DNA from: an uncultured Lachnospiraceae bacterium
Lineage (GTDB): Bacteria > Bacillota > Clostridia > Lachnospirales > Lachnospiraceae
Direction: 5' to 3'
Assembly (NCBI GenBank): GCA_947175175.1
Contig: CAMWLV010000003.1
Location: 1-59,609 of the forward strand
DNA: 59,609 nucleotides
A program made the position numbers and the translations under genes. The notes under the pieces were generated by a model. It searched no databases. It was not told the origin of the DNA and worked only from the letters and a program-made list of their open reading frames with translations. Positions 48,512 to 55,321 of this stretch are shown in pieces; positions within the stretch are counted from its first letter, which is position 1, and every line of letters begins with the position of its first letter.

Positions 48512-48675
48512 TAAGGAACTGTTCAGAAATAATATGTGCAACTTGCGCAGAATATTTCTTCGAGGGTGCAGGTCAAAAAACGCAGGCGTAGCGGGCTACG
48601 GCGAGGCTTTTTGACCTGTGCAATCGGAGAAATAGACAAGTCAAGGTGTACAGATTATTTTTGAACAGATCCTAA
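48512..48675 (-). repeat. MITE-like palindromic element B, copy b
   Basis: 164 bp, bounded by TAAGGAACTG and CAGATCCTAA, with a strong inner palindrome (AGGTCAAAAA...TTTTTGACCT). It is the same length as copy c (53603-53766) and differs at about eight positions. It fills the gap between pseH and the formyltransferase gene. No coding capacity. Confidence 0.85.
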
Positions 48676-52366: not shown

Positions 52367-53362
52367 CTACTCGTGCAAATCTGTCTTCAAGAGCTTTCGA
52401 ATCTGTTCTACAGACAGCCACTCCGTATTGTTTCCCGACGAATAATAGAAGCCCTCCTCCACCTTTCTGCCACTTGGATTCGGACGTTTTGACTCCTGCC
52501 AGAACATCTGCGGATAGATGATAAAATTCTTTTCATACTCATACGTCGTCATAGAATCTTCCGCTGTGATCATCACCTCATGAAGCTTCTCACCTGGACG
52601 GATACCAACTTCCACCGTCTTCATCCCTGGTGCCATCGCCTCCGCAAGATCTGTGATCTTAAACGAAGGAATCCTGCTGATAAAAGTCTCACCGCCTTTC
52701 GCCTCCTCGAGTGCCTTGATCACAAGCTCAACTCCCTGCGTCAGACTGATCCAGAAGCGTGTCATGCGATAATCCGTAATCGGAAGCTCACTTGCGCCCT
52801 CGTCAATCAGCTTTTGAAAAAGCGGAATGATCGATCCCCTGCTTCCCGCTACATTTCCATATCGCACGATAGAGAAATTCAAGTCCTTCATGCCACAGTA
52901 CGCGTTGGCAGCAATAAATAACTTATCTGACACCAATTTCGTACCACCATATAAATTCACCGGATTGACTGCCTTGTCTGTAGATAAAGCTACAACCTTT
53001 TTAATACCTGTATTTAACGCTGCATCAATGACATTCTGCGCACCATTGACATTCGTCTTGATCGCCTCGTTCGGATTGTACTCACACGCGGGCACCTGTT
53101 TTAACGCCGCCGCATGAATCACATAATCAACGCCCTCAAACGCACGTTTCATGCGCTCATAATCACGCACATCGCCGATAAAAAAACGAAGCTTTTCTTT
53201 GTACTGTGCAAAATCGTTCGCCATCACCCACTGTTTATATTCATCCCTTGAATAAATAATAATCTTTTTGGGGTTATAATGTGTCAGTACATATTCGGTA
53301 AAGCACCTTCCAAAAGAGCCTGTACCACCTGTAATTAGTATCGTTTTATCATCTAATATCAT
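52367..53362 (-). CDS. pseB: UDP-GlcNAc 4,6-dehydratase (5-inverting)
   Basis: A 331-residue soluble SDR. TGGTGSFGRCFTEYVL is the NADP loop; LSTDKAVNPVNLYGGTK holds the catalytic Asp-Lys and Tyr-Lys, which separates it from the Met-type PglF. SRDEYKQW and GIRPGEKLHE are typical of PseB. It opens the Pse route from UDP-GlcNAc. GGAGG lies seven bases before the ATG, and a good promoter precedes it, so this is the first gene of the Pse transcript. Confidence 0.95.
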   Translation of the reverse strand: MILDDKTILITGGTGSFGRCFTEYVLTHYNPKKIIIYSRDEYKQWVMANDFAQYKEKLRFFIGDVRDYERMKRAFEGVDYVIHAAALKQVPACEYNPNEAIKTNVNGAQNVIDAALNTGIKKVVALSTDKAVNPVNLYGGTKLVSDKLFIAANAYCGMKDLNFSIVRYGNVAGSRGSIIPLFQKLIDEGASELPITDYRMTRFWISLTQGVELVIKALEEAKGGETFISRIPSFKITDLAEAMAPGMKTVEVGIRPGEKLHEVMITAEDSMTTYEYEKNFIIYPQMFWQESKRPNPSGRKVEEGFYYSSGNNTEWLSVEQIRKLLKTDLHE

Positions 53363-53434: not shown

Positions 53435-53455
53435 AACAATCAGCCATTTATTTCG

Positions 53456-53605
53456 TAACAGTTCAACCTTCAGGTTACTGTTCACTCCGTTCCAGTAACA
53501 GGTAAAAATCCATGCAAAATTTGCTTCGCAAATGGATTTTTACTCACATGCGATACGTTTTCTCACGGACTTAGCAGTAAATGCTAAGTCCTGTCTGAAC
53601 AGTAA
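53456..53605. repeat. Structured repeat X, left copy
   Basis: About 150 bp holding three hairpins. Hairpin I is AACAGTTCAACC/GGTTACTGTT. Hairpin II is GTAAAAATCC/GGATTTTTAC, with a one-sided ATGCAAA bulge and an inner ATTTGC-TTC-GCAAAT tip. Hairpin III is GGACTTAGCA/TGCTAAGTCC. It is tandem with the right copy, from which element B separates it. The 541 bp gap 53363-53903 holds only these repeats and the pseB promoter. Confidence 0.7.
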
Positions 53606-53766
53606 GGAACTGTGCAGAAATAACATGTGCAACTTGCGCAGGATATTTCTTCGAGGGTGCAGGTCAAAAAACGTAGGCGTAGCGGGCTACGGCGAGGCTT
53701 TTTGACCTGTGCAATCGGAGAAATAGACAAGTCAAGGTGTACATGTTATTTTTGAGCAGTTCCTAA
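53603..53766 (-). repeat. MITE-like palindromic element B, copy c
   Basis: 164 bp bounded by TAAGGAACTG and CAGTTCCTAA, about 95 per cent identical to copy b by eye. It sits exactly at the TAA junction between the two X copies and is flanked by TAA on both sides, which fits a 3 bp target duplication. Confidence 0.85.
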
Positions 53767-53893
53767 CACCTTCGGCTTCCTGTTACAAGCATCAAGCCAT
53801 GCAAAACCACTTCGTGGCGGCTTGATGCATCTCAACCACTACGCTTTCTTACGGACTTTGCAGTGTGGTGCAAAGTCCCAGGCTGAACTGTAA
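53767..53893. repeat. Structured repeat X, right copy
   Basis: 127 bp with the same plan as the left copy. Hairpin II is GCATCAAGCC/GGCTTGATGC with an ATGCAAAA bulge and a CCAC-TTC-GTGG tip; hairpin III is GGACTTTGCA/TGCAAAGTCC. The stems differ in sequence from the left copy but still pair. It ends in TGAACTGTAA, 10 bp from the SGNH gene stop. There is no T run, so it is not a simple terminator. Confidence 0.7.
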
Positions 53894-53903
53894 TGCTATT
53901 TCC

Positions 53904-55268
53904 CTATTCATCAAACACCAGATTTGCCACAACACCTTCTGTCACCTTATCATATACGATAATGTTCCATCTGCTTCCAGCCTGGAAGTGATTCACATTG
54001 TCGATTAAAACCTGATAGAAACCGCCCGTCTTTGCCAGCACAAGCTCACTTTCCCCAATCCGGATATGCCTGATGCCATCGTCCTGCCACTGTACCTCCA
54101 GCGCAATCTCACAATCCTGGTACACCCACTGCTGTACCTCTTTGCCGTTTCCAGCTTTCCTATCCGTCACGATCAGAACATAATCCGCGTCATTCTGTGT
54201 CATCTCCAGACATTCCCTCGCTGTCCGGGCTGCCATAAACTCCTGCCATCCGCTCCTTTGTCTGTAACTGCTTGCCGCATCCCATGAATTTGGTTTTTCA
54301 TCCAGTCTCCGGTCCGGCAGGTCATAATTTGCCTTGACATATCCGCCCAGATGGATCGTGACCTTTTTTGCCCCAAAATCATTGAGATGATCGTCATCCC
54401 GGAAATCCGCTGCCGTATCAAGCTCCAGCTCCCCATTCTGGTAAAGTTCATTGTAGTCTACAAATTTCAGACCACGCGCATCCGCAAGCGCCCTGACTGC
54501 CTCCGTCTCATACCGGTGCCAGTTTGCCTTGGGCGATTTGAACAGCAGCAGCTCCACATTCTTTTTGCGGCACAGCTGTACGATCTCATCCAGATAGGCA
54601 ATATTGGCTTCCTCGATCCACGCCTCTCCCTCAAAATCATATTCATTGAGATTCACAGTGTTCTCTGCCACTTCCTGCGTTTCCAGATAGCCCTTAGTAT
54701 AGTTTGTCTTGTCCTGGCTGAAATATGTATAATCCAGCTTACTCAGCTCTTTCCAGCGATCGTGATAGCGAAATACCGGATACACATAAGAGAAATATTC
54801 CGCATCCACCCTGCCTAGTGACTGATAGATACATTTCAGCTTATCAAATGAAAGCGGAATGTCCGTATACCCCCACCGCAGCCCCGCTTCATTGATACTG
54901 TGAATACTGCCCCCTGCCATCATATTCACCTCCAACGCTACAACCTTAGGCTTCTGTGTCTTCAATGCCTCCTTTATATAGAGCACCGAAATGTTCATGG
55001 GCTGCGACGAACTGCCAAAATCATATGCTGCTATGCCGTACTCCTCATATAACGTGACCGGATCAACTGTGCAGAAGCTGTTGCTGCTGCCAATCACGAT
55101 CATATCAATGTCATTCTCCTTTTCCGCATAGAAACCATTCACGATCGTTGTGGAATCCCCTATGAATTTTGCGCGGACGATCCTGTCTGTAACCGTGAGT
55201 ACCAGACTGACAAACAGGATAAAAACCGCCACCGCCGCGATCCTCGAAACCACTGCCTTTTTCGCCAT
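53904..55268 (-). CDS. SGNH-type O-acetylation partner protein (AlgJ/DltD-like)
   Basis: About 454 residues. One N-terminal transmembrane helix (~10-30) leaves the rest outside the membrane. IVIGSSNSF (~55) supplies the Ser of the SGNH fold and DDDHLNDFG (~290) the Asp-x-x-His dyad. It should take an acetyl group delivered by the MBOAT protein encoded just upstream and place it on the glycan, as in AlgI/AlgJ or PatA/PatB systems. The ATG at 55268 follows GGAGG; the track's ATG at 55280 overlaps that site. The C-terminal ~150 residues are extra and unassigned. Confidence 0.78.
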   Translation of the reverse strand: MAKKAVVSRIAAVAVFILFVSLVLTVTDRIVRAKFIGDSTTIVNGFYAEKENDIDMIVIGSSNSFCTVDPVTLYEEYGIAAYDFGSSSQPMNISVLYIKEALKTQKPKVVALEVNMMAGGSIHSINEAGLRWGYTDIPLSFDKLKCIYQSLGRVDAEYFSYVYPVFRYHDRWKELSKLDYTYFSQDKTNYTKGYLETQEVAENTVNLNEYDFEGEAWIEEANIAYLDEIVQLCRKKNVELLLFKSPKANWHRYETEAVRALADARGLKFVDYNELYQNGELELDTAADFRDDDHLNDFGAKKVTIHLGGYVKANYDLPDRRLDEKPNSWDAASSYRQRSGWQEFMAARTARECLEMTQNDADYVLIVTDRKAGNGKEVQQWVYQDCEIALEVQWQDDGIRHIRIGESELVLAKTGGFYQVLIDNVNHFQAGSRWNIIVYDKVTEGVVANLVFDE

Positions 55269-55321
55269 TCCAACCTCCATACATGCCCCAGTCCTGATTG
55301 TCCAATCACAAAAACGTCTGT

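Follow-up and report, generated by a model that had tools for sequence, protein, structure and literature searches.

The miniature inverted-repeat transposable elements (MITEs) of bacteria are short sequences that lack an open reading frame (ORF), end in terminal inverted repeats, duplicate a target of fixed length and occur as many intergenic copies, which may be nested in one another. The family described here, X, has all of these traits and is a member of this already known kind of element. What is unusual about it is the core, which, unlike that of bacterial MITEs in general, consists of three hairpins that covary across subfamilies and of conserved unpaired motifs, together with the DDE-type ends. 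X also resembles insertion sequences (IS) of the IS66 family (PF03050), with which it shares GTTACWGTTCA repeats, an 8-bp target duplication and an inverted near-copy of the repeat near the left end, although X has no gene and the IS copies examined have neither hairpin II nor hairpin III. IS66 is a DDE family and is expected to act on double-stranded ends. REPINs, the mobile units of REP-RAYT systems, are likewise short, intergenic hairpin elements moved in trans, in their case by a Y1-type RAYT that works on single-stranded DNA; X differs from them by its 8-bp duplications and IS66 ends. ERIC, NEMIS/Correia and BOX are, like X, intergenic palindromic repeats, which can be co-transcribed and folded in mRNA, but their sequences, ends and hosts are different. 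An integron attC site, which lies in a cassette array, is used by a tyrosine recombinase and produces no target duplication, was considered and rejected, as X has 8-bp duplications with inverted repeats. Finally, the STAXI motif is a structured motif with covariation, for which an action as single-stranded DNA has been put forward as a possibility (PMC2864571). Both traits recall X; by contrast, STAXI consists of pseudoknot repeats near DNA-manipulation genes, and terminal repeats or a target duplication are not described there (PMC2864571). Within the libraries available, searches for publications on IS66 MITEs, on ISBst12 and on structured clostridial repeats yielded no description of X.

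The window, that is, the whole stretch of DNA that was analysed, comprises 59,609 nucleotides from an uncultured Lachnospiraceae bacterium (contig CAMWLV010000003.1). Three insertions, X2, X1 and P, are nested in its region 53447-53902 (Table 1). X1 and X2 are two members of one non-autonomous MITE family, one inserted inside the other. An earlier note on this DNA had described them as tandem elements, an arrangement that has to be replaced by nesting, with X1 located in hairpin I of X2 between the two copies of its own 8-bp duplication. The same description had missed P, a separate palindromic MITE that lies between hairpin III of X1 and the rest of X2. P is a near-perfect palindrome with the ends GGAACTG/CAGTTCC; it has a second copy in the window (about 48515-48672) and many in the genome, and it duplicates TAA or TTA, a TWA duplication that is shared by eight of nine copies. 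A covariance model recognises both X1 (E 5e-19) and the right piece of X2 (E 5e-16). The right end of X2 is 9 bases from the stop codon of a 458-aa ORF at 53904-55280, and its left end is 92 bp above the start of a pseB-like gene (52367-53362; Polysacc_synt_2). As had been claimed, the copies lie upstream of the pseB promoter, insofar as a promoter-like site, TTGACG-N17-TAGAAT on the minus strand at 53434-53406, known from a consensus match only, is found between X2 and pseB.

Table 1. Features of the nested insertions in region 53447-53902 of the window
Feature	Position	Strand	Details
Left copy of X2 target duplication	53447..53454	+	TTTATTTC
MITE X2, B subfamily	53455..53894	+	Divided by X1 into 53455-53473 (left) and 53776-53894 (right)
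X2 hairpin I, 5' arm	53455..53461	+	GTAACAG, also the left inverted repeat; 3' arm CTGTTAC at 53780-53786; covaries in the family
Left copy of X1 target duplication	53466..53473	+	ACCTTCAG
MITE X1, A subfamily	53474..53767	+	133 bp without P; within hairpin I of X2; pieces 53474-53605 and 53767
X1 hairpin I	53474..53499	+	GTTACTG/CAGTAAC; includes the left inverted repeat
X1 hairpin II	53502..53543	+	Outer stem GTAAAAATCC (53502-53511)/GGATTTTTAC (53534-53543); bulge 53512-53518; inner stem 53519-53524/53528-53533
X1 hairpin III	53567..53591	+	GGACTTAGCA/TGCTAAGTCC
P	53606..53763	.	158-bp palindromic MITE unrelated to X; inserted in the X1 right inverted repeat; TAA at 53603-53605 and 53764-53766
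Right copy of X1 target duplication	53768..53775	+	ACCTTCGG
X2 hairpin II	53789..53828	+	Outer stem GCATCAAGCC (53789-53798)/GGCTTGATGC (53819-53828); bulge 53799-53806; inner stem 53807-53810/53814-53817
X2 hairpin III	53853..53878	+	GGACTTTGCA/TGCAAAGTCC
X2 right inverted repeat	53884..53894	+	TGAACTGTAAT
Right copy of X2 target duplication	53895..53902	+	GCTATTTC

X is a multi-copy family of elements of about 133-145 bp that have no transposase gene, are dispersed and are flanked by 8-bp target duplications. In the genome of the window, the region has 63 matches, which sort into X1-like, X2-like and P-like sets. The intact X1-like copies are 133-134 bp long, with 98-100% identity, the ends GTTACTGTTCA/TGAACAGTAAC and 8-bp duplications, and the X2-like copies found elsewhere are uninterrupted and measure 138-140 bp. 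The terminal inverted repeats of the family are GTTACTGTTCA..TGAACAGTAAC in the A subfamily and GTAACAGTTCA..TGAACTGTTAC in the B subfamily. Among 83 elements from named Lachnospiraceae records, an 8-bp duplication with at most two mismatches flanks 51, a figure that is somewhat inflated because the boundary search also scored duplications; for shuffled pairs of left and right flanks, the rate is 1.7%. The duplication is asymmetric, with a pyrimidine at its last position, position 8, in 79%. The nearest relative (G017, locus L331), which is 98% identical beside pseB, has an empty X2 site, TCTATTTC; it reads CATCTATTTCCCTATTC where the window has CATTTATTTC, X2 and GCTATTTCCCTATTC. A second empty site was found for another X copy. 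As read from sequence, the target duplications, the nesting and the empty site in a relative establish X as a mobile element. In three other relatives, the region upstream of pseB (L337, L338 and L339) carries other MITEs or remnants with IS66-type ends in the same intergenic spot, which looks like a recurrent insertion site.

The covariance model, a check that had been proposed with the original description, gives matches to X in 38 of the 116 related genomes; 32 of these belong to the genus of the window and six to other genera, and the number of copies scored in one genome reaches at least 27. Among the named carriers are Parablautia muri, Mediterraneibacter agrestimuris and Hominisplanchenecus murintestinalis. 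From two copies alone, it could not have been excluded that the structures are chance palindromes or the product of a simple tandem duplication. This possibility is already refuted, and its probability is negligible, given the many copies with one architecture across Lachnospiraceae, the separate 8-bp duplications of X1 and X2, and the empty site.

The source of the transposase was sought in relatives because the genome of the window gave only a partial IS66 match at a contig end, together with IS ends at contig breaks. Complete autonomous IS66-family elements, which have the ends of X and exact 8-bp duplications (gctgcttt, gccggaat and gtattaga in three of them), were located by way of a D-type end that occurs at contig breaks. 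They contain a single ORF of about 560 aa (561 aa at 3251-4936 of L207) with an IS66 transposase domain (PF03050) that scores above the Pfam cut-off and below the IS66 equivalog cut-off of NCBIfam. Their ends are GTTACTGTTCA or GTTACAGTTCA, with the consensus GTTACWGTTCA, and these ends are common to homologues of 44-63% protein identity. In addition, an inverted near-copy of the terminal repeat is present about 35 bp inside the left end, which is the layout of hairpin I of X. In view of the shared ends, duplication length and left-end layout, the transposase of this IS66 subgroup probably moves X in trans. The A subfamily ends match an IS66-family element identically over GTTACTGTTCAC. For B elements the assignment is weaker: the search found no autonomous IS with exact GTAACAGTTCA ends, and the nearest IS end is GTTACAGTTCA (loci L258 and L207). 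X does not appear to be a deletion derivative of the IS as judged from internal sequence, as the model of the X core has no match in the IS copies examined. The partner subgroup is rarer than X, being present in nine of 299 genomes of the family at a strict threshold, and five of 14 X-carrying genomes, several of which are incomplete MAGs, have no IS66 match.

Other candidates for the partner were discarded. An ORF beside a terminal repeat (C80) looks like the start of a transposase, but its translation, from which it was judged, reads like a serine protease. An element with the end CAATGTCATTAAGTTAAGC, found at many contig ends, has an ORF start resembling that of an IS4-type transposase and inserts into the ends in question; a 60-residue fragment of this ORF has no match in Pfam. 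At loci L059-L070, it gives 18 end matches, mostly at contig breaks and repeatedly at GTTCACNCC or GAAC inside terminal repeats, apparently choosing the termini of other mobile elements as its targets. Further IS66 types found in X-carrying genomes were rejected as well, because their ends differ. One genome of 6.7 Mb (G072, that of locus L161) has 88 IS66 transposase matches, and in L207 (499-5012) two elements of the subgroup, with transposases that are about 63% identical, lie head to head 9 bp apart. The IS66-type ends and 8-bp duplications of X are shared by another family of structured MITEs, whose members (L041, L043-L045, L047, L049 and L050) are 142 or 157 bp long; its core is unrelated to that of X, and paired changes occur in its hairpin I as well.

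The structural plan that had been noticed in the two window copies is common to many subfamilies: hairpin I, hairpin II with a one-sided bulge, a linker, hairpin III and a short tail. The perfect outer stems of both copies, the inner stems (ATTTGC/GCAAAT and CCAC/GTGG, each with a TTC loop), the one-sided ATGCAAA(A) bulge and the complementary stems of hairpin III are all present as described. The plan of two hairpins was nevertheless incomplete, as a third, hairpin I, occupies the left end of each copy. The region folds with a z-score of -12.2. Hairpin II has perfect arms of at least 9 bp in 42 of 59 representative elements, as against 1.2% of dinucleotide shuffles, and perfect arms of at least 7 bp in 77 of 84, with 31 different arm sequences.

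Covariation was assessed in two kinds of alignment. In a MAFFT alignment of 22 elements, which was not fitted to the structure, two-sided changes occur in 18 of 42 pairs (8.1 when shuffled), and pairing falls from 90% to 29-47% once the partners are slid. When 93 elements are aligned to the model, and thus fitted to the structure, two-sided changes affect 37 of 42 pairs and 664 cells, compared with 195, and all four helices of the three hairpins covary. Against a null simulated on the tree, using a script of our own in the manner of R-scape rather than R-scape itself, eight pairs are significant and none off-structure in the former alignment, and 25 of 41 pairs are significant, with one off-structure, in the latter. 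RNAalifold, run on a first sequence-only alignment, recovered only hairpin III, because the stems of the subfamilies were misregistered; anchored subgroup and model-based alignments replaced that alignment. Since most loci were gathered by a hairpin III pattern, this hairpin is frozen in them, but in copies found by the model it covaries too (for example, GAGGTTTGCA/TGCAAACCTC, GGGTTTTGCA/TGCAAAACCC and GGACTTCGCA/TGCGAAGTCC).

While the stem sequences vary, with arm positions of hairpin II conserved at 36-92% and mostly at 36-80%, several unpaired motifs are kept: the AT-NN-AAA bulge, the GCAG-NNN-TGC loop of hairpin III and the TTCTTAC linker. In the bulge, the opening A is conserved at 99%, the T at 98% and the last As at 98% and 97%; the AC before hairpin III is kept in 97% and 100%, and the G that opens its loop in 100%. 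Hence, the proposal that the covarying stems reflect selection on structure is supported by the further copies, in which, contrary to what would have refuted it, all helices covary and the bulge and loop are preserved. Some copies depart from the common plan. In L015 (189-337) and L023 (788-940), which represent both subfamilies, one and the same 20-bp hairpin, TGGCTTGTAAAAGCCATAAT or nearly so, takes the place of the base of the hairpin III 5' arm, and hairpin II of L119, L128 and L145 carries an additional palindrome at its tip, different from copy to copy yet paired.

Selection is not the only process that could produce such changes. When a DNA polymerase switches template from one arm of a quasi-palindrome to the other, it can create or mend stems and make multi-base compensatory changes, a documented mechanism (PMC8794818), so that the covariation might be mostly mutational, with changes copied across arms and no selection on the fold. 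The near absence of wobble intermediates and the new perfect palindromes at hairpin tips in the three loci just named agree with this. Nevertheless, template switching leaves the conserved unpaired motifs, the one-sided bulge, the linker and the constant stem lengths unexplained. Moreover, in copies that are at least 95% identical, all six paired-site changes are one-sided, a small number, and the two-sided share grows with divergence, to 0.47 at 90-95% identity and 0.9 at 60-70%. As the main source of the covariation, template switching is therefore improbable, although it is a live rival for part of it, and selection is the better explanation. Recent copies decay one side at a time, whereas the differences between lineages are paired. 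Selection on lineages that are still moving is considerably more likely than template switching as the cause.

A further question is on which strand, and in which nucleic acid, the fold would act. On the strand given, G.T wobble pairs make up only 23 of about 3,200 cells, unlike in most structured RNAs. Of the two possibilities raised in the earlier note, a structured mobile element is borne out by the duplications, the nesting and the empty site, and a functional RNA is less certain in view of such rare wobble pairs. A.C mismatches, which would be wobble pairs on the complementary strand, number 55 and are mostly in hairpin I. Where the neighbouring genes are in tandem, X is oriented opposite to them in 61 cases and with them in 22 (p = 2e-5), so that the complementary strand is the co-transcribed one, and the hairpin I side faces a gene 5' end in 97 of 128; the ORFs for these counts were called crudely. 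X1 and X2 follow the same orientation rule. On the complementary strand, the inner loop of hairpin II is C(GNA)G, with a free middle base, in 75 of 93 elements, and C(GNA)G belongs to a stable DNA triloop family (PMC5815330). The excess of A.C over G.T, the orientation bias and this loop are three weak hints that the functional strand is the complement of the one first described.

Two readings build on these hints. According to one of them, the core is a functional RNA passenger, either a cis-acting leader or a processed sRNA, which is made from the complementary strand, helps or spares the neighbouring genes and has been spread by mobility. The mismatch counts, the orientation bias and the window copies that obey it speak for such an RNA. 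By contrast, a scan of the window and five family loci gave no Rfam match at the gathering score, no T-run that would mark an intrinsic terminator follows hairpin II or hairpin III (the two matches of the terminator scan are in P), and the asymmetric target duplication means that target choice could itself generate an orientation bias. We consider an RNA passenger rather unlikely, though not negligible. Slightly less likely still is a core that acts as single-stranded DNA, with the transposase or a factor of the host making contact with the hairpins of the complementary strand while the DNA is replicated or transposed. The triloop would suit this, as would the DNA folding energies, which, in each of the three elements tested, slightly favour the complementary strand. 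However, a DDE family such as IS66 should work on double-stranded ends, and the autonomous IS lacks hairpins II and III, so that its transposase needs neither there.

The explanation we favour, and hold to be fairly probable, is that X is a MITE moved in trans by the IS66 subgroup, with a core selected as a folded single strand. The transposase of the subgroup would recognise the ends of X and insert it with an 8-bp duplication, and hairpin I would probably be a transposase site, given the similar layout of the IS left end. Hairpins II and III would form a core added to these ends, whose helices, bulge, loop and linker have outlasted many replacements of the stem sequence, most likely because the lineages that still jump are selected for the folded single strand of the core. 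The folded core would act either in the RNA of read-through host operons or in transient single-stranded DNA. As the hairpins persist despite changing sequence, the folded shape itself probably matters to the movement or survival of X. The more specific idea that X needs a folded single strand for its mobility or persistence, through a three-hairpin core that is recognised by its shape, free to vary in sequence and added to the ends of a classical DDE transposon, is possible but less likely than not.

Covariation is commonly regarded as proving a functional RNA; in X, a mobile element nearly free of wobble pairs, it is very strong. X is also a warning that searches for structured RNAs in gut Firmicutes may pick up MITEs. 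With hundreds of young copies and dated insertion footprints, the X family is also a natural test bed in which selection on structure may be set against template-switch mutation, and in which it may be asked if a DDE transposon system is able to make use of a folded core.
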